Shown: one piece after another, positions 4,075 to 59,980 of the stretch
Numbering within the stretch: the stretch's first letter is position 1
Layout: every line of letters begins with the position of its first letter
From: Coniochaeta sp. PMI_546
Taxonomy: Eukaryota > Ascomycota > Sordariomycetes > Coniochaetales > Coniochaetaceae
Assembly (NCBI GenBank): GCA_021432605.1
Contig: MU271145.1
Coordinates: forward strand, 2,356,001 to 2,420,000
Direction: 5' to 3'
DNA: 64,000 nt
Program-made: the position numbers and the translations under genes
The notes under the pieces: model-generated
The model's input: the letters and a program-made list of their open reading frames with translations, nothing else
Databases searched by the model: none
What the model was told of the DNA's origin: nothing

Positions 4075-5176
4075 ATGGATATCGTTCTCGAAGTCGCCGA
4101 CACTTTCCTATTCGACTATATGTACGCCTGGGCACTGCCGGCACGTGAAGCTCCCCTTGGCTACCCCGACCAGTTCGCGACAAATGCCACTCAGAAGCTC
4201 ACAGCATGGCAATACAAGCCTGCAACGTCCTGGTTCAGTCTTGAGCCTCACGCAGCGGCGTATGGCAGCGCGCTGGCTCGTGACAACCTCTTGCGCCAGT
4301 TCTTTTCCTTCTTCTTAATATTTTGGTTAGTCGACCACCGCGTACCACACACGGCACCTCAATCCTTCACTAACACCGCTTGCTAGGTTGTTTGGTTTAA
4401 TCATGTACTATGTCTTCGCAAGTCTGAACTACCTCATCGTTTTCGACAAGCGGACTTTCAACCACCCGAAATACCTCAAGAACCAGATCGCCCTCGAGAT
4501 GAAGCAAGCAAACTGGTCCATGCCCATCATGGCTATTTTCACGGCGCCCCTCTGCGTCCTCGAGGTGAACGGCTACAGCAAACTCTACGACACGACCGCC
4601 GAGGGTCCCGGGCGCTGGTGGGACTACGCGCAGTTCCCCGCCTTCGTCTTCTTCACCGACATGTGCATCTACTTCATCCACCGCGGCCTGCACCACCCGG
4701 CAGTATACAAGTACATCCACAAGCCGCACCACAAGTGGGTTGTGCCGACGCCTTATGCGAGCCACGCCTTCCACCCCATCGACGGGTACCTTCAGGGCCT
4801 GCCCTACCACCTGTTCCCCTTCATCTTCCCGCTGCAGAAGATGGCGTACGTGGCTGCCTTCGTCTTCATCAACTTCTGGACCATCATGATCCACGACGGT
4901 GAATATGTCGCCAACAACCCCATCATCAATGGTGCTGCCTGCCACAGCATCCATCACACCGCGTTCAACTACAACTACGGCCAATTCACGACGCTGTGGG
5001 ACCGTCTGGGCGGCAGCTACCGCGCACCCACTCCGGAGCTGTTCCAGAAGGAGGAGAAGGCCATCAAGAAGGTCTGGCAGGAGCAGTCAAAGACGTACCA
5101 GGAGATGGTTGCAGAGGTTGAGGGTGAGGATGAGCGCGTGTTCAACGACACTGTCGAGACGAAGAAGACCCTGTAA
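4075..5176 (+). CDS. ERG3: C-5 sterol desaturase
   Basis: Exons 4075-4325 and 4387-5176 encode 346 aa, the usual size for fungal ERG3. The enzyme introduces the C5-C6 double bond into episterol late in ergosterol synthesis, in the ER membrane, using a di-iron centre. The three histidine boxes of the fatty-acid hydroxylase superfamily are visible: HRGLHH (about 182-187), HKPHH (195-199) and HSIHH (270-274). Hydrophobic membrane segments precede and separate them. The intron has a GTTAGT donor and a GCTAG acceptor and joins a split Trp codon. The C-terminus is charged and lysine-rich, ending KKTL, which fits an ER-retrieved membrane protein. Upstream in-frame residues from 3871 have no membrane-protein character, so the ATG at 4075 is preferred. 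Confidence 0.93.
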
Positions 5177-16029: not shown

Positions 16030-19000
16030 ATGAAGTCGCGTCAAAATGCGGCTCTCTCATCCGCGCTTTGGCTTGCTGCAGCCAATATCTTGATACCCGT
16101 CGCTGTCCTGTTGTTCGCGACCGGTTTCTTTCCTTACAAACCCGTCCTTCCTGGCCTGGCGCAGTATCACAAAGACTATGACCGTCTACAGGCGCCGTTT
16201 GATCGACTCGTCTTCATGGTCGTGGATGCTTTGCGAAGGTACTTGGCTAGACTTGGGTGCTCATGGAGGAAGCTGGAGGTTAATCGTCCCGTGTATCAGT
16301 GATTTCGTATTCTCGGAAGACAGCGGCTTCAAGAACACTCAATCGTAGGCTTTTCGTCATCTTGTGCCACTGGTCCCAGTGCTGATTCTAGGCTCAGGTT
16401 GATTCGCGATGGAGCAGCCTTTCCTTTCACGGCCCATGCCACGTCGCCAACAGTGACGATGCCACGACTCAAAGCCATAACGACTGGCTCCATTCCTTCC
16501 TTCCTCGACGCCATACTAAACCTGGACGAAACGGATAAGACGTCGAGCCTGGCTTCGCAGGACAGCTGGTTGGCGCAAATGAAGGCAAAAGACACCGGGA
16601 AAGTGCTCATGTACGGAGACGACACTTGGCTGAAGCTCTTCCCGGGAACCTTCGACCGGGCAGACGGAACCACGAGCTTCTTCGTTTCGGTATGAAACAC
16701 GTCACGAGCAGACGCAGTATACTGGACCCTTTGCTGAGTGGGAGTATAGGATTTTACAGAAGTCGACAACAACGTTACTCGGAACATCGCGGGAGAGCTG
16801 AAGAACAGTGACTGGAATACGATGGTTCTGCATTACCTTGGTCTTGATCATATTGGACATAAAGGAGGGCCAAGAAGGTGAGTTTCAAGTACTCCTCCCT
16901 TGTAGCTCTGCAGAGTTGACACCCCCCTGAAGCTTCCACATGCTTCCAAAGCAACAAGAAATGGATGGGATAGTGAAGTATATCTACGGTGCTATTGAGT
17001 CGGAAGAGCATCTACAGTCTACTCTGTTCGTGCTATGTGGCGACCATGGTATGAACGATGCCGGCAACCACGGCGGTTCTTCCGCTGGCGAGACTTCGCC
17101 CGCACTGGTCTTTATATCCCCGAAACTTCAGACACTTCAACGTCAGTTCAAGTCACCACTGCCGCCGAGAGACGACTTTCAGTATTACTCGACTGTGGAG
17201 CAGTCAGATATTGCCCCTACCCTTGCGGCTCTACTTGGGTTCCCTGTCCCGCAGAACAACCTGGGCGTCTTCATTGGCGACTTCCTTCCCCTTTGGGAAA
17301 AAGGTATCATTCCAGACGCAGTGTGCTTCCCCAAGGCGAAAAAAGACTGATGTTCGTAGCTGTCGATAAGGTCCACATTCTCTTGCAGAACGTTGATCAG
17401 ATCAAAGCCATCATAAGCGCGACTTTTGGCTCTAACCTATGGCATGCTATTCTTGAGAACGATTGTACGGCTCCTAGTTCAGACGCCGAGGAATTGGCTT
17501 GTGAATATAGAACTATGATAGCAGAGTCTGGGCGCGCGGCAGCTCATGGGGATGTCGAGCTGTCGCAAGCAACCATTTCCAAGGTATATCTACTTATTTT
17601 CCACCGGTGTTCTCTCAACACTAACTCGTGTCTAGTGGTTACGAAAAGCCCAAGATGTCATGAGCAGCATGGCTAGCAACTACGACATGTCTCGACTCAT
17701 TGCTGGTCAAGCAATCGGGATCGTTGCTGTTGTATGCGCAGTGTTGGGGACTCATATGGTCAGTGATCAAAACATGCGCACATTTGCACCATTTGCATTC
17801 GTTACGGTAGCCTACGGTGTTATGATGTTCGCCAGCAGCTACGTGGAAGAAGAGCAGCATTTCTGGTACTGGACAACCACCGCATGGTTGACGTTGTTGG
17901 GCGTGAAGAATTGCGACGGGTGAGTTCTACTACAGCGAGTAAGGATCTTACATTTACTGACAACGCCTGTAGAAAGATCTCGTCTCGAAAGAGCCATATG
18001 CTCTCGGTAATCCTAGTACTGGCCGCAACAAGGCTTGTCAGGGGCTGGAATCAGACCGGCCAGAAGTTTGCGGGTGAACTGGATATCGTGAAGACATTCA
18101 TCACACCCAACCCTGGCCTTCTATGGGTTCTCGTGGGCGCCACATATCTTTGGATTGCACGAGATGTCAGAAATGGTTTCAGCGGCCTGCCGTCCGCTGC
18201 TAGCTTTGTCATCGCCACGGGATTAACTCTCGCTGCGTTCGCCTTCAAGCTTGCATACACGAACGAAGACGCCCCCGAGCTGGTCTCCGGCCTGGCCTTA
18301 AAAATCCTCGATCATCTCCCAAGCGCATCTCTGGTGGCTAGGGCGCAGGCTATATTCATTGGCATTGCCAGCGCCACTGCTGGAGTGCTCTACTTCATAT
18401 TTGCCAAGCATAGGGCGCCGGTGAATTCAACAGGTCAGCGGCACATGCTCCCTCAGCTGAGACATAACTAACAACTTCACCTTAGCTCTGGATACCCTAC
18501 TTAGTCTCTACACTTTGTTGGCGGTGACGCAGTCCAGGACCACCAATATCCCACTGTTCCTCCTGTTCAATATCCAACTCAAGTTCCTGGGCTCGCAGGA
18601 ACTTGACGGCGCCGAGCTGGCTACGTCAACCATTCTGCTCTCCTTCATGTCATTCTTCGCCTTTGGAGGCTCGAACGCCATGTCCTCGGTGGACTTGTCT
18701 AATGCCTATAATGGAGTGAGTAACTTCAATGCTGGGGCTGTTGCTATTCTTACCTTTATAAGCAACTGGGCCGCCCCTATCTACTGGACATTTGCCACGA
18801 GCATCCTCTTAGTAAGGAAGAGAAAAGCAGGGCAAAGCAACGTCTTTCTACACCATGTCGCTTTTTTAACGGTGTTTGCCACTTTCAGTGCCGCAGCTGT
18901 TATGGCGGCGTGTACTGCCTTGCGCACGCACTTGTTCATATGGACGGTGTTCTCGCCGAAGTACCTGTATTGCATGGCATGGACATTAGGTCAACATCTT

Positions 19001-40687: not shown

Positions 40688-43499
40688 GCTAAGGGTGCAG
40701 CGCTCATGTTCTCCAATTCTGCAGAAGAAGCTGTGTGCGCAATGTTAATGATTTATGTATGTCCGACTTATCGATCAAGCCAGGGAGACGTTGAGATGTC
40801 AAGTGGCAGCTGCCTCCACACGGGTTGAGGTCATCATTCGGCAGCTCTCCCGTGTGGCCAAGCGTAGATTGGCAGGGATGTCCGTAGCCAGAATGACTTA
40901 AGCTGGAATGCGTTGGAGCTTAACGCGACAGCTGACTAACCTATCCAGTACTAGTGTCTCAGCTTCCCAGACTTCAACAGAATCCGAGATGCGATCTTCG
41001 TGGGAAAAGCCTTGTTTTTTTTTACAGATTACACGGTCGTAGTCATGAACAGAACATGCGCAAAACTCAAAACTACCTGAGAAGAAGAGGCGCGAGTTGA
41101 GGTGGCATTTGCGATTACTTTGGACTTTGAAGGAGAGCTCTCGAACCGTCAGCGAGCGAGCTCAAAGGGCATCGAGCTCCAGGAATTCGACGACAGCCCA
41201 AGTCGTTCGTTAAGAACATGTTTCGCACCTTGGTGTCTCCGCCGCCACGTGGTGGCTACTGGGTATGACCTGAGGTTTGTATGCTCAGCATGCCGAATCT
41301 AGTAGAATCACAAGATTTCGCTCTGGAATCTCAAAGGTTAGAGCGTCGTGATAATTCACCATACTACTGTGGACCACATTGGGTGGATAAGGGAGTCTGA
41401 CACGACATCAGCTGGTAACGCGGCGTGTCTATTGCGGTTGATAGCATCTTTATGAGACTCACTTTCTGGCTTGTCGTCGGCCAAGGCAGCCATCTCGATA
41501 TCGAATTGCTCTTGACCCGAATCCGAGTACTGATGTCGTGTTCAAAGAAGACTTCATGCGACGACGCAATGCTGGAATGTGACCAGCGGGAAGCTGTCAG
41601 TTATAAGTTGTCCGCCGAACTGGAACGTGATTGACATTTCCAACCGGACCAACTCCGGCTGGAAAACTCGTCTTCCGCCGCTCGCAGTGTCGTTGAGGTG
41701 CCTGTGATATCCCACATGGTGAAATATCTAGGCTTGTCGCAGGTAACATGCTGCTTTGAGCCACTGCCCTAGTGAACGTCGTCTCTCACTTCGCCAGGAT
41801 ACACTTGACGAGTGATCGAACCCGGGTCGTTCTCCGACAAAAGTTGCAAGAATGCCTTCGGACACATTGACGCTGTCATTGTGGTACGTCCAGGTCGCGG
41901 CGAGATACTCGTGGATCCTGTCGGTTGTCCAGGAACGGCCTTCCCAAATGTCATGTGTCGTGAAGTTGGTGAACATATGTCCACAGCGAAAACCGCACCA
42001 CCAGATACTATCCCCAGCGCCGTTCGCGTTCAGAGTCAGTAAACTCCAGACAGCGCTTCCCTCGACACTACAGGTACATCTGGAAGCCACAGAAGATGAG
42101 CCTTCGCCGAAATAACATCCCCTCTTGGTATGTCAAGCCACGGCTGTTTCCACTTATATGCTTGAGCCGTTATTGATGCCAAGAGCAGCACATCAAGTTT
42201 TGTTGCCGAAGCTGAGTACACAGCAGTGACGTTCTCAGTATTGCCGACACGCCTGGTGAATCACCTCGGCGCCACTGTCTTCAGCAACGATGATGTTAGC
42301 TCGCGCGGTGGTTCATTTTCTGCCCGTACCCATGTTCTTCTGTCGTCTTGCTCACATCTCAGCTTGAAAGATACTATAGGTGGCACTTCAAAGATATTGG
42401 AGTCCCACGGACATGATGGCAGTGATGGCATCCTGGATAACTGTGGGCAACTTTGCAGAAACTTGAGTTCCAGGGTAGGGTTTTTCTCGTGGCATACTCA
42501 CAGACCGAGGCCCCCAATTCAGCTCGGAGCGACGTACTGTTGTCCTTGTAAAGAGCGGTGGTATGACAACTACCAGTGTCGACTTTTTGGAGGCCTGACT
42601 CCATGAACGGGCCAGGCGCCGCCATAGTAGGACGCATGAGTGCTGGTACACTCAAGCAACCATGCCCGTATCATAGCCCAGCCAATTGCACGGAGCGCCA
42701 TATCACTCTGGTTATTTTTCTTCCCTTCCCCAGGTCGGCGACGGGACTGATGTCTCAGCGATCCTGGGTGGCTCTTGTCAAATCCGACAGTATCAGACTC
42801 AAACAAATCGACGTAGTACTGCTGAGATCGGTCTGGGCTTGACTGCTGAACAACAGACAGAGGCCAAGGCACAATCGCCACGTTTCGTCATGGCTTCCAT
42901 CAACGACTGGTAGCGGCTTACTTCCTAATCTCGTACACTGTGAAGAAATTGCACGAACAACATCCCGACGGTTGTATGTGGAGGGTTGTTCCTCAGGTCA
43001 GCCAGACCGCTACAACGTGTCAATGACGACTTCCAAGAAAGGAAAACAGGCGATCCAAAACAATACCGCTCCAGAGTTGACATAAGACAGCGTTACTGCT
43101 GGAAGCGGTATGCCCTAGTTGTCTGATCTGTCCATGGTAGATAGCTGGCTCAGGTAAGGCTGGTTGACCTTCGATGCCGCGAAATGGTCATTGAGCATGC
43201 TGAAGAACCCTCTCAGACCCGGCGGGCAGTAGATGAAGATTGTAAATTGCAAGAGACACATCCATCGGTACTGCGTCCTGATACCGTTAGACACCAAAAA
43301 CGAACAGCAAGAGCGGGATAAGGCTATCAACCTTCCGAATCTGGTGTTCAAGGTCTCTTGAGCAAGGATCAGATAGGTCGGCAGCGGCCCACAGTGTCAC
43401 GATAAATGTGCGGGCCCATATCTCTCGAGCGACTTGTGACTCATTCCTCGAATTCGCATGTCACTCAAGGTAAAATAACGCAACGTTCTTTCATCCAAC
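40688..43499. other. Gene-poor region upstream of the tRNA gene
   Basis: No intact gene is recognised. Minus-strand scraps at 41728-42090 (with NFT, NDS and NVS sequons) and around 43115-43351 and 42990-43100 look somewhat coding: a hydrophobic VLFWIACFPFLEVVIDTL stretch is visible. They are broken by stops and frame changes and may be remains of a host membrane-protein gene. Confidence 0.35.
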
Positions 43500-43627
43500 A
43501 GCTGCGTGGCGCAGTGGAAGCGCGGTAAGTTCTTTAAGCTCGCGCACTAAATTTGACATTGTACTGACAACAAACAATAGCCGGGCTCATAACCCGGAGG
43601 TCCTCCGATCGAAACGGAGCGCAGCTA
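43500..43627 (+). tRNA. Initiator tRNA-Met(CAT) with a GT-AG insert between positions 26 and 27
   Basis: Removing 43525-43580 leaves a perfect 72-nt initiator tRNA. The acceptor stem AGCTGCG (43500-43506) pairs fully with CGCAGCT (43620-43626), with discriminator A at 43627. The D arm is GCGC-AGTGGAA-GCGC, followed by G26. The anticodon arm is CCGGG-CTCATAA-CCCGG with CAT at 43588-43590, followed by the variable loop AGGTC. The T arm is CTCCG-ATCGAAA-CGGAG. Initiator traits are present: A1-T72, three G-C pairs below the anticodon loop, and A54/A60 in the T loop instead of T54-Psi55. The A box TGGCGCAGTGG is at 43507-43517. A T-rich Pol III terminator starts a few bases after 43627. The sequence matches Neurospora initiator tRNA closely around GCGCGC-GGGCTCATAACCC. 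Confidence 0.93.
43525..43580 (+). other. 56-bp spliceosomal-like intron inside the tRNA gene
   Basis: The insert begins GTAAGT, has ACTGAC with branch A at 43567 (13 bases before the end) and ends AATAG. These are the signals of the protein-gene introns in this window. It sits between the D arm and anticodon arm, not at the canonical 37/38 site. Because G43524 equals G43580, the boundary could slide by one base. I tested both registers for the bulge-helix-bulge that tRNA endonuclease needs and found no 4-bp central helix. A GCGCG (exon) / CGCGC (intron) complementarity could form a hairpin around the 5' junction. Confidence 0.8.
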
Positions 43628-43629
43628 CT

Positions 43630-43650
43630 CCTTCTTTTTTTCCTTTTTTT
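43630..43650 (+). terminator. Pol III T-tract terminator
   Basis: Two runs of T separated by CC lie directly downstream of the tRNA gene, as expected for RNA polymerase III termination on the plus strand. Confidence 0.8.
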
Positions 43651-46600
43651 GCTTTGTTTAACCTTCACCCTTCTACTTTTCTCACTTGACTCTTCATATT
43701 CATCTCTTGTCCTTCTCTAACCAAATTGACCACGGCCACATGGGTACCTTGCCTATGTCGACATGTTGTCGTTATTGTCGCCTCGCCAGCAAAGAACAAG
43801 GGGCAGATAGTATTCTGGCAGTACCTCAAATAGGCGACATCGCCTTGACTACGTTGCTGTTCGACTTGCTAGACCACTCATTTGTTTGTCGACCCGTCTA
43901 ACAGTGGTGACTAGAATGATCGATCGGGCTGTCTCGACAGAGGAGAGGCATGCGGGCAAACTTTGAGGTTCCGTCGCCGTATACCTTTGACCTTGTGTCC
44001 CTGTCTGGATCATTGATGCTGAGCAGTTTCCTGTATGGGAATGATATTGCTCTCGAAAAGGAACGCTGTTATACCCTCAAAGTATAAAACACAGCGAGAG
44101 GTAACAGCTATTGAGAAAGGATCATCAAGAAAGGAGTGGTAGGGCCACTCAAGTTCAACGTCCCCCAAATCATGTCTTTGAGCGTCTCCTGCTCTTTCCT
44201 CTTGGGATTTCGAGATGTTAGGCTCACCGGCACATGTCCTCTATACTATTGGGCCTAGTCAGGAGCCTCGACTCAGCGTTCTCACGCTCGGGGTCTGTTA
44301 ATGTCATTGCTATAACATAGCCTTTTCCGTATGGTGGCCGTCACTAGGAAGCCATGTACTACTTGCAAGCCATGAGCACTTGCCACTATATTGGCAGCTT
44401 TACTTCAGCCCAGGTATTGGCAGGAGGTCCAGGGCGAGAGCAACCCGTGAAAAGACCTAATCTCCGGAGGCAACAGCGGAGGGCACAGAAGGCAGAGCTA
44501 AGTCTCTCGAGTTCTGCCACAATGTGTGCAAGGCGCACCCACTGGTAACTCCCGCCCAACTGATTAAGGCATCATCAAGCTCAGCGGAGCTCTCGACCGC
44601 TTGATCACAAGTGCCTCCCGCATGGTGAAGGGATGAAACAAACTCTCAGCAACGGTCTTACAGAGCGCATGAATGTAGTGGCAATAGCCTCGCCCACGCG
44701 AGCAGCAGTTTCGGACAGCTGCTGTCTCGAGCCGCGTCAATGGAAGCCGATGCCGCCTCCCAGGAGCCCTCTCTCTAGTAGTTGTCCATGCTTGGAGCGT
44801 CACGACATCATCTCCATCGCTGGCACAGGATTTCAAGACACGTTACCTTCGTGCCTCACCTCATAACGTCACCGCAGCTCCCTCAGGGGCTGCCTCAGTT
44901 TCAAGAAAGGAGAAGCAACAACTGACTCAATCACTCGAAACGACGGCACGCAATGCCGAGGCCATTGAAGTCACTCGAACTAAGCTATCCTGCCGCCATG
45001 GAGCTCGTGGACGTCGCCACCGGGAACTCCAGTCTTATTTCTGTCCAGGAAAGGCTGAAAAGTCACCTGGAAGCCACTCGCCCAATCCCGGCTGTCGAAC
45101 GTCCATCAATACTCATGCACTGTGCATCGGGTCCGAGTGACTTCTGTCGTGCCGGGCTATAACAGCTTAACGGACCCATCCTATGCCTTCGTATTCATCT
45201 ACATCTGGGCCGTTGGGGGCACAACGGACGGCGTTCGCCTCCGCGAAATGTCCGGAATGGGGGATACTTAGTCCAGGCTTCATCGCGTCTCACTCAAGCC
45301 AAGGAACATACGCATGATTCTCCATGTCGCGCCAACAGATCCAGCTTCGGATGGATGATGGGCTGAGAAAAACAGGTCTCGTTCAATATAACGCCCAGCT
45401 TGAGAGTAAGAGAGGTGGAGATCGGCACCCGGGAAAAGAACTTCAAGAACGTGAAGAAATATCCGGGGCAATGCCTCGGTGAGAAAAGCCGGTGACATAC
45501 TACGACAGGGAGGCAACGACGGCACGATTGATAGAGTGTTGGGACCAAAGCCAGAATTGTCATCACCTTCCCGTGAAGTGCAATCGTATGAGACGTTAAT
45601 GATACTGGCAAGCCGAGCTTCCCTCCTCATCCCGGGCATATCTGGCCCGGCAGAACTCCAACTGATGTGAAGGATGACAACCAGGAGTCCGGCAATATTC
45701 AGCTAGCGTCTGATGTTCGGTATCGGAGCTTCGCCTGTCATGGTCCCGCCGCTTCTTCAGTTCAACACCAGGCAACAAGGTCGTCGTTGTCAAAGTACAT
45801 CCAATACACGCCTTGGCGGGAGAGTGGCTTGTGAAGTGATACTGAAGGTATTCCAGGCTGGTAAACTAGCATGGGAAGAAGAAGCGTAGATCAGCCTGGT
45901 TTCTCGCACTGAGGTTAAACAAGGAGGACCCTTGGTCATAGAACGGCAGTCAGGCTAAGGCTCCAGGATGACAGGTGATTGCCGGACATCGGATAAGAAT
46001 CAACGACGTCCATCCGGAGAGTCGACGAAGCATGGGGGCCCTTCGGTATTCGGATGTCGTGACAATCTAACTACCATCTAGTTCTTGGGTGGGCCAGCGC
46101 TTCTTCGCCAACGGCAATGGTAAGTAACGTTGCAAATCCATCCATAAGACGGAAGAAGCCTTGGTTGGGTAATTCCAGGATGTTGGAATTGCAATCAAAG
46201 CTTTCCTGGTTGTTGTAAAGTGCTGCTCGAGTAATTGCCGTATAGTGTTTATCTGCGAGGAAGCAGAACTTCTTTCTTTCCAGGAACCTGGAGGTATCCC
46301 AAATGAAGACCCTATGCCAGAGCAGCCAATGGAGCAGTCACCTAGTCCCCAGCAGGGACTCCGATATGAAGCCGAAATGGCATCCTTGTGTCAGCCAAGC
46401 CTGACGGCAGTGGATGGTTGTATATCGAGCCGTGGGAGCAGTATATTTACCCGGGTTCTGAGCTTCGCCTATCGTATGCTTCAGATCGGTTCGAACAGGC
46501 AAGGCTTGAAAGCAAGTCCCTGCAGACACAGACAGTTGTCGAAAAACCGAGTTGTGCCGAGCGTCAATATGTCAAGGTGAGCTCATGAGAGCTTAGTCTA

Positions 46601-49600
46601 GATTTCAGAAGTCTCAAGACAGTGTTGTAGCCGGAAGTGGTTCATCTCAAGTCTAGCGATCGACCATACATCTTCATGCATCGTTCACTTATTGATCTTC
46701 GCAGGTGGGACGAAGGCTGAAGATGGCAGCCCGGCACCAGCCTAAGCTCCGTGCTTGAAGCTCTGAAGGATGTGTGACATATTTGCAATTATTTCAACAG
46801 CTCTGACTGGCTGTGCAGGATCTCGAGCCGATTTGTCTCAGGTGCCTCTGAACGTCATCGTCGAGAAGTGATAGTGCCGACCAGATGTTGAGCTATCGCT
46901 TTAGGTTAAATGCTCTCCGTCAGCTTGGATAGTGATTAGCCGTTGTTTCACGTTCCGCATGTACTCGGCTTTGAACAGGCGAGGTGTGTTGCGGTTTCTG
47001 AAGCAAGCCAGCAGATGTTTGATCAAGTCCGGAAACTCGACGACAGGCGCCTGTCTCCTCTCCTCCTGGTTTGGTTCGCTAGCTGTCCTGGAAATCTCTT
47101 CTAGAAGGTGGTCCAGGATCTTTTCGCCTTGAACTACGGAATGACTTGCTTGAAGACAACGTGGCCGGCCTGGCCGATGCGTCGATCAATTGGGCAAGGG
47201 TTCAGCACCCGGACAGTGATCCACGGGTGTAGCATTTCTCTCGACGATCTGGAAGGAATTCTAGACTACAGACCCGGCCCAAACCCATCCAGATATTGCT
47301 AATCCGAAGATCTGACACTTGAGACACCAGGCTACTTGGATACCGTAGCAATGGGTGTGACTTGTGTCAGAACTTCCGCAACCGCTCTGTCACCTCACAA
47401 GTCTAGCGCGTTGGGGTGGGAGAAGTTGGTTCCTAACAAGTGCCATAGACATCTTACGGCCATGGGGTTATGCACGCCCACAACAGCCAACTGAGGTGAT
47501 GTGCTATGGCTCGCACTGACGACAAGCTCGTAGAAATTCGTATCATATGTTCAGAGTTTGCGGTTCTCCATCCCATGCCGGCTGAGGGCTCTTTTTTGAC
47601 GGGACCCAGACTTGCCAAACGGCGCTACGCCATTGCGTCAGGGTTACAGTGCAGATGTTCGTGCGAATCTTCCCCATGCCGCCTTGATGATTGCCGTTGA
47701 CACCTGACAGCGCAATTAAAGAGTCAATGCAACCGCGGAGAATAATCTGACACTTGTCAAGACCTCGAAGCCGGGGAGCACATCACCAGTCTTCCCGCTG
47801 ACCTTTAACCGGAGTCGGACCCAGAATCCTTGCAGCCCCACGGCAGGTTCGTCCAAGTCCTTGGACCGGCGGCCTGTTCACATCGATATGATACCTCGGG
47901 GGCTGGCATCCGCTCGGCATGAGTGTCCTGGATTCCAGAGGTCAAGAGCAGCCATTCTCCTGTCACGTAATTACTGGGCTGGAGATACGAGATAGCTTGT
48001 CAGAGGAACGGTGACCAGAAAATCCATAGCCTACGGGAGGGGCGTACATGGTTCGAAGGATGTAAGGAGGCGTAGGAGTGCTCTGGATATCTGTACGACG
48101 CGGCGACAACCCTCTGAGTGGGTAGTGCGAGAACAGATGCAGTAGTCAAACTTAATATCTCCAAGCGGGAAAGCCAGTACCAGAAAGCTGGTGAGGGTCC
48201 GAGAGCGTGGCAGAGGCGGCGACCTTGAAGCAAGCAGATCTGCAATCATCTCTGTGTAAGCCAAAGTTGCTGCAAAGGGACATTCTCGGGCTGCGCCGCA
48301 GCTGTTCGCGACCGAGAAACAACGCGGCTGGCCCCTTCATGCAGGCGAAACCCAATGTCCCGAATGTCGACATGGACACTTTCATGATGGACAATATGCA
48401 TGCCAGACATGCAATGACGGAACGGACTTATTCTCGGTCCATAGTTGACCTGTACGAACCTGGGTTATCTGGTCCTTTTGGTTAGGGGGGTGCGGTGCAA
48501 GCAGAGCGTGAGAGTCAAAAAAGCTTCGACTCACGTTCTGAACAGATGCCTCTGACGGCTTTTGAAGTTGGCGGTTCCCATAACTAGCGGCCGTGCCGTG
48601 TCTGTGGCGCAAGTTGCCTTGGGATTTGGAGAGTCCTGAATGGTAACGAATTGCTTATTGGAAAGTTGAGTTATAGCATCCGAGATATCGCACCTCGATG
48701 GGATTGCCGGCAGCAGCGATGCAACGTTGGACATGTCTGATCCAGATTGGTAGAGATTGTGTTTCGCGGGGTAGAATATGCATAAATTACATAGTATACA
48801 CAATGGGGATATGGTTAGTGCCAATGCTAGCCATATTAGACGTACATGAAACGAAACATGCTGCCCAAACCCAACTTCGGGAAGGAGCGATGGAAAGAAC
48901 TTCGGAACGAATACAGGAAGAACCAAGTGAGGCGAATACACAGTCATAGTATGCTGCACTCGGATATTCGACTTGCTCTTAGCTGTCACTACGTCGTCTT
49001 GAAAATAGGAGCTCACAGCAGCATGCCGGAGTCTCCGCTGCCACCTCCGTGCATTTGGGACTCGACTTTCTCGCAACCATTGTTTGGTGTTCCTCGAGTC
49101 CTCCGAGTCCCCCGAGCCGCTGACTGGAGCATCCGCTAATTCTAGCTGCCGGGCTAAGGGCCTCTAGCCTGCACACCTCTTGACAAATGGGGGTAGCATC
49201 AAATGACCGTGTGTCTGCCAGTACAGCCGCATAAGGAGAAAAAGAGATGTTGGCGAAACCCGGATTCTCACTGGCTGCAAGTTGATGGCTGCCGGCCTAT
49301 GCGCCCATGCACGGCCAGGCTCCTTTAGGCTTATTTCAGCCACAAAGTTCAAATACTACGGCCTCTCATGCCTCTGATCACCTCCAACCGTGGGACATGG
49401 ATTCGAACCGGGAATCAGGGTCGCATTTAGTCAAACCACGGCTCCTTGCGAACCCTGACCCGCCGGTCTCTACCGGGTGTCTTGTGCCCGCATCATGTCC
49501 TGATCCGGCTGGCGTTCGTGGCCAGCTCTGCTTGCCGTGTCAATTCATCGTAGCGAACACAGGATTCGGTTGTCGTATTTGTTGTTACCGTAACCGTATG

Positions 49601-50022
49601 CAATTGTGAAGTGTACAAATGCGAGGCAATTATTACCAGGTTCCTCTGAAAACTCTGGCTTCCGGTGTTCAGTCAACAGCTTCTGGGAAAGAGGTTGCTC
49701 TTGCAATTGTACGCTTTATAACATTCTTAGCGACGACCAAACCCTTTCTGTACCAGATTTGTCCAGAGTGCCAAGAACGCAACTGTCATAACCTACTACC
49801 ACAGTAGTGTGATGATATGTCGGCAGGTTCATCATTGGACAGCACAGGCCAAACTTATACTGGCAGGACTGGTATAGTAGCAAAGGAAATATTCCGCACG
49901 GGTCTGTCATAACAGGCAGAACAGGGTGGGCCCAAGGTGGGCGTTCGTAGCAGACAGTTGACCCAAGCCTGAGATCGTCGAGGATCCAGCTCGAGCGTCG
50001 ACTCGGTGGCTGCAACAAAAGG

Positions 50023-50328
50023 TCAATTATCTGAAAAGGCTTTGGCGAGGAGGCGATCCAAGAACATCGAGTTGAGTTCCTGTTCGGTCATGAGATCGAC
50101 AGTGGCTGAACCGACTGCGTCCTTTTCCGCAATCAGGGAATATGAGATGTGATTGCCAGCGCTGCCAGGCCTTTGCATGACTGGCATGTCAGCATGTGCA
50201 TCGACTTGCCCTGCTTGCTTGGCCGACTGCGGTAAGGTGATAGAGGCGCGCATGTCTGCAGTTGATGAGCGTCCCTCGATGGGGAAAGGAGTCCATACGT
50301 AGAAGAGAATCTGTCGACCCGGCATCAC
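50023..50328 (-). other. Possible gene relic or unrecognised exon
   Basis: A 101-codon frame with plausible protein character (GNHISYSLIAEKDAVGSATV, LMTEQELNSMFLDRLLAKAF) lies on the minus strand. It is followed upstream on the same strand by another frame at 50519-50851. Splice junctions linking them are not convincing. It may be the end of an unrecognised gene or decayed coding DNA. Confidence 0.25.
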
Positions 50329-52042
50329 CGGACCATAGGTACGCAGGGTCTAGAATCTCAAATACCCAAGTTACCTGCCCAAGTGAAGTCCATTTCTCGT
50401 CGCCGCGTTTTTGTCGTACACGTGTAGATTGATCTGCTTCGCTGGAAACCGCCTGTGGCCATCATCTCCATCTGTAGATTAAAGCCGGCAGGCGATTCGT
50501 GTGGAAGATGTGGGGCTGCTAATATCTGCTAAAATGGCCAAGGAAGGCCTCGACACAGCTTAAAAGGTTAATATCCACGGAAGGCCAAAGGAAGGATTTC
50601 AGAAGCTTCCAGGGTTTCTCGTAGTGTGCGATGTGGTTTGAGAAGAAGACGGCACGGCTATTTGCAAGCTGAGTGACACCAGTAACTCCAAAGTCATCAT
50701 CAACTCCATCACTGAATCTGGCTTCTCGCTTGCCAAGCTCTGTGAGAGAGCGTTTCTGCTCTGCTGTGCGTGTAACTTTGTAAGCTTCCAGGACGATGCA
50801 GTGCAGCATGTCTTGAGATGCACCCTCCGTGATACCAACGGCCCCACTCAAGACCTAAATCCTCTCCAAGTCCCCGGCTTCTCAGCGTCGGTTCCTTCCT
50901 AGCGCTGGGCAACGGCGGTCCGTGTCGTGAGTTCCCTTCCCGTTTGTCAGATTCTGAGATTCCCGAGGCTTTTGTTTCACTTTTCTCGCGGCCGCGGGGC
51001 TTCCCCGCCCTGCACACCTCTACCCTATTCTCCAACTTGATTCAACCAACAAACAAATCGGGTCAATTAAGAGTCAATTGCTACATGGCACTAGAAGCGC
51101 CTCGCATCAGCCACCGTTTTTTCTTAGTACGCCAATGACGGTCAATCGTATGTCAATCGTTCCATGAGTTAGCCACTGTCGGCCGCCAGCAGACCGGTAG
51201 CAAAGGCGCGGCGGATGAATCTAGAGAAGGGTTGGAAGAATCGGGAGTGTTTGACATGTTTGCATCACCGGGTCTGCACCGGCAGTGACCGGGTCCGTCT
51301 GCTTGGTTTCACGCGCGCACACAGGATACAGGAAGCCTCAGCACTGCACTCCACCCGTATGGTCTTCACAGGCTCCAGATCAAATGGCCTATCGCTCTGT
51401 CTTCAGCTGCAGCTGTGCTCTCCAACCGGGCTCTTGGTTGGCTTGCATAACTCTCCGCTCCTTCTTTCGGCCAGCCGCTGGAACAAAAAAAGCATTCATA
51501 GCATCTTGACATGACAGCCCGAGCTGCATTCTCCATCCAGCACAACACCCCCCCTTTGGAGCAAAGCAGTGCAGGCACTTGCACTGAAGTAACCAGGCTC
51601 GAATCTTAGGAGACGACGATAGGCAAGCTGGCGATGAGGTAAGGGGTCTAGGAGATTGTCGAGCGTTGAAGCTTGTAGGCCTTTGGCTTTAACGACAACA
51701 AGCCAGAGGACAGAATCTAGCGCTTCCCATGGATGTTGATGGTGGGATTCGAGGTGGCTCAAGGTTACCTTTGACAAGCACGGTATGGCCGCCTCGGACA
51801 AGCTGTCAACCTACGTCAAGGGGTGCTAGGGTCTTGCGGTGCAGGCGTCAATCCCACCAGCCCACTAACCCAGCTGTTGGGAGCCTGTGAATGAGCGCTA
51901 CTGCAAATGGCCGACCCTGGTCAGGCTTGTGCGAATCCGTACTGTACGTTTGGTCCCCTGGACATCCCAACGTGCACACCACCTTATCAGCCACGTTAGA
52001 CGATCCATGGGACGGCTCAATGTATGGCTGCACACACAGGTG

Positions 52043-52120
52043 TACATCAATACATCAATACATCAATACATCAATACATCAATACATCAATACATCAATA
52101 CATCAATACATCAATACATC
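52043..52120 (+). repeat. 8-bp minisatellite, about 9.75 copies
   Basis: The unit TACATCAA is repeated without interruption or mismatch over 78 bases. It lies in gene-poor DNA about 1.1 kb before the velvet gene. Perfect identity suggests recent expansion or ongoing slippage. Confidence 0.95.
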
Positions 52121-53098
52121 ACAGAGATGCAGAGACCCGGCGACACTAGACCCTACACGTAGACGTGAGCTAAAGTCCAGCAGTAGGGGGCGGCCGGGGC
52201 GCTGAGGTCCGGCCCCATGATGCCAGGACATGTGGAGGATTCCCTCGAGTCCTCCCTTGGCTTCCAAAACACCCAAACACCACATCCTTTCTGTTTCCAT
52301 GCTGCTCATACAGACTGACACATAGGTCCTTCACGTCCCGCACCCCTTCGCATGGCATCTATACCTGCTCTCTGGGTTATCCAGGATCCTTAGCCGTGCA
52401 ATATATTTTGTCCACCCTCGTTCCGGGTGGTCCTGCAACCCTCTCCGCCTCTTTTCCTGTCCCACAGCAGCAATAAAGAGAGGCGGCTGTCCCTTGGCTT
52501 GACTGGCACACCCAATATGCCTTTTTGATATTATTGCTCCCTCTCAATCTCTCACAATGGCCCACCAGCCAGGCTTTCCCATATTGCCTTGAAAACTTCC
52601 GATTGACCGCTGTGACCCTGCTGCTCGCTACCCTGAACTCTGGACCTGGCACATCTTCCTCAAGGTACCTTGCTGGGAAACTACTTCCTCGTATACGCCG
52701 AACCTAATCCCCGCATTCACAACCTCAACTACAAGGTCGATCACGGGCAACCAAGACCTGGACAGCAAGCAACTACCGCCCGAAGCCCCCTGGTCACTTC
52801 TGGCCTTTCTCCTTCCGAAGTCCATATATACAACTAGCAGCTAAAGGTCGCTGTCTAGTTCCTGGACATTTGTGCTACCTCCAGAGTGTCTCTGAACAAG
52901 AATATATACCCGCCCGGTCGCCTGCTGTCTTGCCCGCAACGAGACATCTCTTGGCCTAATTCCCTGTATCTGCAAGTGGTGCTTGTCTTGCCGTCCATAA
53001 AAACATCCTCCAGCTCAGTCGCCGCTGTGCTGTACTCGACAATCTTATACTAGTCTATACTACTGCCCAGAGACTAAGATCACCAATACCGCCTATCG

Positions 53099-53161
53099 GT
53101 ATGTTCATCGTGTATGCCTCAGACATGATAGAATATTCTTGTCCACTGACTCAGCCTGCAG
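53099..53161 (+). other. Probable 5' UTR intron of the velvet gene
   Basis: A 63-bp segment has donor GTATGT, a CACTGAC branch site about 13 bases before the end, and acceptor CTGCAG. It ends 41 bases before the ATG at 53203. The motifs are as good as those of coding introns in the window; transcription here is inferred. Confidence 0.6.
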
Positions 53162-59053: not shown

Positions 59054-59980
59054 ATGGTTCGCAAGTTCTTCGTCGGAGGTAACTGGAAGATGTTTGTGAA
59101 CCTCTACCCCGCCATGGCCTCGAGCATGGACCCCGCCATCTAGTGCCTGGCGGAGGGATTGCTGTTGACGTACCATACCTTGTGCTAACCTCGCATACTG
59201 TAATTCAGGAACGGTACCATCGAGTCCGTCAAGTCCATCGTTGAGAACCTGAACAAGGCCCAGCTGGACCCCAACACCGAGGTGGTCATTGCCCCGCCGG
59301 CCCTCTACCTCCTCCTCGTGCGCGAGCACCTCAACCCCAGGATCGAGGTGGCTGCCCAGAACGTCTTCGACAAGCCCAACGGCGCTTTCACGGGCGAGAT
59401 CTCCGTCAGCCAGCTCAAGGACAGCAACATCACCTGGACCATCCTCGGCCACTCGGAGCGCCGCACCATCCTGGGCGAGAGCGACGCCGTGGTCGCCTCC
59501 AAGACAAAGTACGCCACCGACGGCGGCATCAGCGTCATCTGGTGCTGCGGCGAGTCGCTCGAGGAGCGCGAGGGCGGCAAGACGCTCGACGTCATCACCA
59601 AGCAGCTGAAGGCTGTGAGCGAGAGGCTGGGCGGCCCAGAGGGCTGGAAGAACATTGTCATTGCCTACGAGCCCATCTGGGCCATTGGCACTGGCAAGGT
59701 TGCCAGCACTGAGCAGGCCCAGGAGGTGCATGCTGCTATCCGCAAGTGGCTCAAGGAGAATGTCAGCGAGAGCGTGGCTGAGGAGACGAGAATCCTCTAT
59801 GGTGGCAGCGTGAACGGCAAGAACTGCAAGGAGCTTGCTACCCAGCCTGACATTGACGGTTTCCTCGTTGGCGGTGCCAGTCTTAAGCCAGAGTGTAAGT
59901 TGAAGTGCGGTCGTGATATTGTTGGTTTTCGATGGCTAACTTCAGTGGCAGTCGTCGACATTATCAACAGCAAGCAGTAA
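59054..59980 (+). CDS. TPI1: Triosephosphate isomerase
   Basis: Exons 59054-59091, 59209-59894 and 59952-59980 encode 250 aa, the normal length. It interconverts dihydroxyacetone phosphate and glyceraldehyde 3-phosphate in the cytosol. Catalytic residues are all visible: Asn and Lys in [11 protein letters not shown] (about 10 and 12), His in ILGHSERRT, and Glu in [13 protein letters not shown]. The phosphate-binding end reads [12 protein letters not shown] and [12 protein letters not shown]. Exon 1 ends AAGAT, and only the GTTTGT donor restores Met-Asn-Gly. The last exon is 29 bases; the acceptor at 59951 rather than the nearer CAG restores [12 protein letters not shown]. Very high use of C-ending codons fits strong expression. 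Confidence 0.95.

Follow-up and report, generated by a model that had tools for sequence, protein, structure and literature searches.

The introns of tRNAs and those of mRNAs are regarded as separate systems, each served by its own machine. The U6 small nuclear RNA (snRNA) is a transcript of RNA polymerase III (Pol III). The canonical introns of eukaryotic tRNA genes lie at position 37/38 and are located by a ruler mechanism (PMC4090602). Introns outside 37/38 are known from tRNA genes of Cyanidioschyzon and of nucleomorphs, and bulge-helix-bulge motifs are present in those of Cyanidioschyzon, according to the accessible portions of PMC3978253 and PMC4090602. In fungi, mRNA-type introns occur in transcripts other than mRNA. 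As given in the available text of PMC5832005, fungal U3 and U6 RNAs contain spliceosomal introns, those of the U3 small nucleolar RNA (snoRNA) being canonical GT-AG introns in the great majority of studied Pezizomycotina, with some U3 paralogues carrying an intron and some lacking it. For rRNA of lichen fungi, the accessible part of PMC8527467 describes a 57-bp spliceosomal intron which is removed by yeast from an RNA polymerase I (Pol I) transcript, and rRNA introns that are also removed in the lichen fungus. Here, we describe an initiator tRNA-Met gene which would cross the line between the two systems in an essential RNA. It lies in a stretch of 64,000 nucleotides from Coniochaeta sp. PMI_546 (contig MU271145.1, positions 2,356,001 to 2,420,000; this whole stretch is called the window below) and is split by a 56-nt insert, which by the sequence features tested is a spliceosomal intron.

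Compared with the described systems, the insert adds, as judged from its sequence, a new variety to the spliceosomal introns already known from transcripts other than mRNA, and it is best read as analogous to the introns of U6 and U3 RNA and of lichen rRNA. Among tRNA introns it has, to our knowledge, no equal. The introns of fungal U6 snRNA, as far as the available source text describes them, are likewise mRNA-type introns in a small structured non-coding RNA of fungi, whereas their host is a splicing RNA and the host here is a tRNA. The U3 introns have a mean length of 92 nt and a snoRNA host in the accessible text of PMC5832005, against 56 nt and a tRNA host here. The ascomycete and lichen rDNA introns, in the part of the literature at hand, are of the mRNA type, of nearly the same size (57 bp) and, as here, located in a non-Pol II (RNA polymerase II) transcript, but the host is a Pol I rRNA there and a Pol III tRNA here. 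The introns of Cyanidioschyzon and nucleomorphs share with the insert a position outside 37/38 in a eukaryotic tRNA gene; in the accessible portions of their sources they are discussed as endonuclease introns, while the insert carries full spliceosomal signals. Canonical tRNA introns also lie in nuclear tRNA genes, and the insert differs from them by its 26/27 position and its mRNA-type signals. No spliceosomal intron in a tRNA was found in the open-access literature, in a non-exhaustive search of titles and abstract starts in which subscription papers were mostly outside, and the available parts of PMC13130702, PMC4022394, PMC5499181 and PMC6461891 hold nothing on this question.

The features of the locus are as follows.

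43500-43627, plus strand: initiator tRNA-Met gene, split (sequence, fold, ARAGORN on the spliced form)
43500-43524, plus strand: exon 1 of the initiator tRNA-Met, positions 1-26 (sequence, fold)
43507-43517, plus strand: Pol III A box TGGCGCAGTGG, tRNA positions 8-19 without 17 (assigned by eye, 11-nt form)
43525-43580, plus strand: spliceosomal-type intron, 56 nt, between tRNA positions 26 and 27
43525-43530, plus strand: 5' splice site GTAAGT (sequence; donor score 10.9 bits)
43562-43568, plus strand: branch-site motif TACTGAC, with the predicted branch A at 43567, 13 nt before the intron end
43578-43580, plus strand: 3' splice site TAG
43581-43627, plus strand: exon 2 of the initiator tRNA-Met, positions 27-73 (sequence, fold, ARAGORN)
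43588-43590, plus strand: anticodon CAT, within exon 2
43607-43615, plus strand: Pol III B box / T arm GATCGAAAC (sequence)
43635-43650, plus strand: two T7 runs, likely the Pol III terminator (T-run scan)

When 43525-43580 is deleted, a 72-nt tRNA remains, in which 21 of 21 stem pairs are formed and all are Watson-Crick pairs. ARAGORN in plain mode calls the spliced stretch tRNA-Met(cat), and it reports no gene in the unspliced stretch and 0 genes in the window. The first-pass annotation of this DNA had claimed that removal of 56 bp gives a flawless initiator tRNA, and the claim holds. A1:U72 and three G-C pairs closing the anticodon loop are marks of eukaryotic initiator tRNAs; the spliced 72-mer has both (the G-C pairs being G29-31:C39-41), together with the CAT anticodon, A54 and A60. 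A54 is named as a eukaryotic initiator mark in the accessible text of PMC3978253. The cloverleaf fold energy of the spliced tRNA is -31.4 kcal/mol for 71 nt and -32.1 kcal/mol for 72 nt, and 63 of 72 positions are identical to the yeast initiator tRNA. Both exons are without signs of decay, and the spliced product is by sequence and fold a complete initiator tRNA. The split initiator tRNA-Met is thus confirmed, with a host gene that is intact by the features tested.

The ends of the insert are fixed by the tRNA within one base, as the DNA allows the registers 25/26 and 26/27, and GT-AG ends are given in 26/27 only. The combination of GTAAGT, a CTRAC motif in range and YAG at these ends has a chance of about 5e-7 in a simulation with the base composition of the window and two registers. 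The insert has the characters of a U2-type intron: GT-AG ends with the donor consensus, a CTRAC branch motif with normal spacing to the 3' end, and a length within the range of the host's introns (56 nt, beside 22 candidates of 53-87 nt). It lies at 26/27, or 25/26 depending on register, and not at the canonical 37/38.

For the comparison with the window's own introns, a model was made from these 22 candidates, which were picked by eye among 39 of 57 candidates found with a loose motif; the model excludes the tRNA insert as well as 16 further rows, which were overlapping alternatives, long candidates or candidates in weak contexts. On this model the insert scores 26.6, and the 22 introns score 18.7-26.9. 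Among the 56-mers of both strands only 1 of 127,888 scores as high as the insert or higher, which is the insert itself, and the same is seen among the GT...AG 56-mers (1 of 523). With the insert counted, the window has 5 occurrences of the strict pattern GTAAGT..CTRAC..YAG, against 0.6 on average and never more than 2 in 30 dinucleotide shuffles. The window contains short introns that have a CTRAC branch site, and three candidates have protein support.

59895-59951: intron of TIM (triosephosphate isomerase), 57 nt, GTAAGT..CTAAC..CAG
17920-17972: intron of PIGO/PIGG, 53 nt, GTGAGT..TACTGAC..TAG
19710-19657, minus strand: intron of Cnd3 (condensin), 54 nt, GTAAGT..TACTAAC..TAG

In TIM, the protein match ends at residue 230, which is the start of the intron, and splicing leads to a TIM-like C-terminus. 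In PIGO/PIGG, the Pfam match has its start at 17971, two bases short of the intron end, and the frame is open once the exons are joined. Cnd3 is the least direct of the three cases: 306 residues stand against a profile of 288 positions, and the 18 surplus residues equal 54 nt, the length of the intron, which lies within the match. The signals of these introns are of the same kind as those of the insert (GTAAGT or GTGAGT, CTRAC, YAG), though not letter-identical. The earlier description of GTAAGT, a branch site 13 bases before the end and a TAG ending, as in the surrounding introns, therefore stands, with all signals present and the three protein-supported introns alike. It is very likely that this genome removes introns of the insert's size and make-up from mRNAs.

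The host gene has the signals of a Pol III tRNA gene: an A box, a B box and a T-run terminator. The A and B boxes are still in order, one on each side of the intron. The A-box assignment follows the A-box consensus; a 12-letter A-box pattern gives no match to the 11-nt A box at 43507-43517. The B box GATCGAAAC has no other exact copy on the two strands of the window. The T7 runs begin 8 and 17 nt past the tRNA gene, and they are 2 of the 8 runs of at least six T on the plus strand of the window, where 0.34% of positions have such a run starting within 30 nt.

From the above, we consider it likely, on the evidence of the sequence, that Pol III transcribes this initiator tRNA-Met gene and that the gene has, between its positions 26 and 27, a spliceosomal intron of the U2 type. 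We infer its transcription, the spliceosomal removal, the order of steps and the contribution to the initiator pool. In the proposed process, Pol III would transcribe the gene from the internal A and B boxes and end at the T runs; U1 would recognise GTAAGT and U2 would recognise TACTGAC; the spliceosome would excise a 56-nt lariat and ligate G26 to C27, so that the D stem and the anticodon stem would adjoin after splicing, and the usual end trimming, CCA addition and modification would then follow. The first-pass annotation had left three options, namely a spliceosome acting on a Pol III transcript, an endonuclease accepting an unusual substrate, or a silent copy. The sequence favours the first of them, by the signals, the position other than 37/38 and the absence of a canonical bulge-helix-bulge. 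It had also pointed out that the weight resting on this intron is set by the number of gene copies.

Several points weigh against this reading. The evidence comes from one locus in one genome. The intron model is partly circular, as its 22 introns were hand-picked from a motif search and three of them have protein support. For the loose intron motif there is no enrichment, as the window has 57 and five block shuffles have 67-99. Short insertions in the D or T arm of eukaryotic tRNA genes are mostly found in one of many synonymous genes and are supposed to mark pseudogenes (PMC4090602). In exact scans with the 5' half of the tRNA (15 stretches matched in viral_contigs and 61 in genome_contigs, which are prokaryotes) and with the 3' half (1 stretch in viral_contigs), the 5' half gave 77 matches in 76 loci, and a single locus has both CTCATAA and the B box downstream. 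This locus, at 4360-4431 of a putative viral contig (L004, IMG/VR), is a eukaryote-type initiator tRNA, the only other one from the contig scans, and it is intronless. Its A box has the same 11-nt form as TGGCGCAGTGG, with one base changed. Finally, a helix between exon 1 and the intron displaces the D stem in the predicted precursor (D-stem probability <0.01); this loss was given no weight because a D-stem probability of at most 0.05 is also found in 16.4% of 500 shuffles of the intron body.

In the same predicted precursor, the acceptor, anticodon and T arms form, and in the donor GUAA is mostly unpaired while the last GU is paired. By this fold model, splicing would have to come before the final folding of the tRNA. 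A regulatory precursor fold was also considered and dropped, as the energy is ordinary, with 58.6% of 500 shuffles as low or lower.

The main rival reading is that the copy is silent or a relic, and this would lower the importance of the finding most. Here the intron-like insertion would be recent and lie in one of several initiator genes, the transcript of the split gene would stay unspliced or be degraded, and intronless copies would supply the tRNA. Eukaryotic nuclear genomes do have multiple genes per tRNA, and insertions at unusual positions are usually read as pseudogenes (PMC4090602). However, all 21 stem pairs are intact in this copy and Pol III-type T runs are present; moreover, the three splicing signals are intact and near the best of the window, which a random insertion would not bring. 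A silent copy is therefore rather unlikely in our judgement, though it fares better than any of the other alternatives.

A much smaller chance is given to the reading in which the insert is a non-canonical tRNA intron, like those of red algae and nucleomorphs, and is cut out by the tRNA splicing endonuclease (SEN). Besides these known introns outside 37/38 (PMC3978253, PMC4090602, in their accessible portions), it is in its favour that eukaryotic SEN is able to cleave archaeal bulge-helix-bulge substrates (PMC4090602), that archaeal introns include position 25/26, the alternative register of the insert, in the part of PMC4090602 available, and that many nucleomorph tRNA introns have no defined motif in the corresponding part of PMC3978253. 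The bulge-helix-bulge was sought in 3-4-3 geometry, in both orientations and both registers, and in a relaxed form that allowed 2-4 nt per bulge. In neither register is there a 3-4-3 motif whose cuts fall inside the bulges. One weak 3-4-3 match was detected in the 26/27 register, but both of its cuts are at the bulge edge, two of its pairs are G-U, its flanks are 1 and 2 pairs long, and its formation would disrupt the anticodon stem. Relaxed matches number 7 in the 26/27 register and 1 in 25/26; two of them have both cuts inside the bulges, with at most one flanking pair in all, and relaxed matches with a flank of at least 2 occur in 18.4% of 2,000 intron shuffles. The earlier statement that no bulge-helix-bulge was found in either register is right for the canonical geometry, beside which there are the edge-cut match and the looser matches. 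SEN also leaves GTAAGT, TACTGAC and TAG unexplained, and at the sequence level removal by it is unlikely.

About as improbable as SEN is that the insert is an intron of an overlapping Pol II transcript which coincides with the tRNA by chance. When the flanks are joined, one frame is open for at least 36 codons on each side. Against this, the intron lies exactly where its excision rebuilds the tRNA, the 75-codon frame (from the first ATG) crosses the tRNA and a T-rich tract without matching any Pfam family up to E 1, and a Pfam scan of 10 of the 11 nearby open reading frames (ORFs) with 110 aa or more gave 0 matches up to E 0.1.

Two readings have next to no probability. A tRNA-Arg(CCG) gene with a 49-nt intron in the anticodon loop is called by ARAGORN with the -i option for both the unspliced DNA and the entire window, but in this form the anticodon stem contains an A-C mismatch and a G-U pair and the total is 80 bases, whereas the initiator form pairs everywhere and has the initiator marks, and the call is disfavoured and read as a misannotation. 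A minimal group I intron of the type of fungal rRNA genes (56-81 nt) is just as hard to accept: such tiny introns, one of them splicing in vitro, are described from Phialophora and some lichen fungi in the available text of PMC3160393 and the size fits, but a U in a G.U pair ends the 5' exon of these introns (PMC3160393, available text), exon 1 here ends with G (26/27) or C (25/26) and the intron with G or A, and no Rfam family was reached, group I included, P7 and P10 pairings not having been searched for.

In the Rfam search, no family reached its gathering score in the window, and 43400-43720 gave, up to E 10, one chance match to mir-327 and no tRNA, presumably because the intron breaks the model. 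An introner or transposon origin of the insert was rejected, as no sign of a mobile element was seen: insert and gene have no second match in the window (blastn, up to E 1), and no inverted repeats of at least 14 nt lie within 42500-44600. As for repeat-induced mutation, no 2-kb block has a TpA/ApT ratio above 0.81.

If the spliceosomal reading of the tRNA intron is true, the spliceosome is able to act on a tRNA precursor, the supply of initiator is tied to the splicing capacity, and the locus offers a case in which the gain of spliceosomal introns by genes other than those of Pol II can be tested. That the maturation of this initiator needs the spliceosome and not the tRNA endonuclease, and that it supplies a real part of the initiator pool of the cell, is a more tentative proposal, which we hold to fall slightly short of an even chance. 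If it is true and the genome has few or no intronless copies, translation initiation of this fungus would depend on mRNA-type splicing of a Pol III transcript.

There may also be a hidden class of spliceosomal tRNA introns in fungi, because a common tRNA finder, ARAGORN, misses or misnames such a split gene, which points to a possible blind spot in fungal tRNA annotation. In tRNAscan-SE 2.0, the search for non-canonical introns is described for archaea only in the accessible text of PMC8450103. Odd intron-bearing tRNA calls in fungal annotations may conceal similar genes, as in the tRNA-Arg(CCG) call above.

The window has 54% G+C and contains velvet-family, GPI-transferase, condensin and ferroportin-like genes; together with the short introns, these suggest a filamentous fungus, probably one of the Pezizomycotina. 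Around the tRNA gene, about 12 kb (40800-53100) show few signs of protein genes, as judged from the 10 ORFs without a Pfam match in the scan above. The product of the TIM gene (59204-59977) differs from its best solved-structure matches at several conserved-looking places, and from its sequence this gene is possibly a diverged paralogue.
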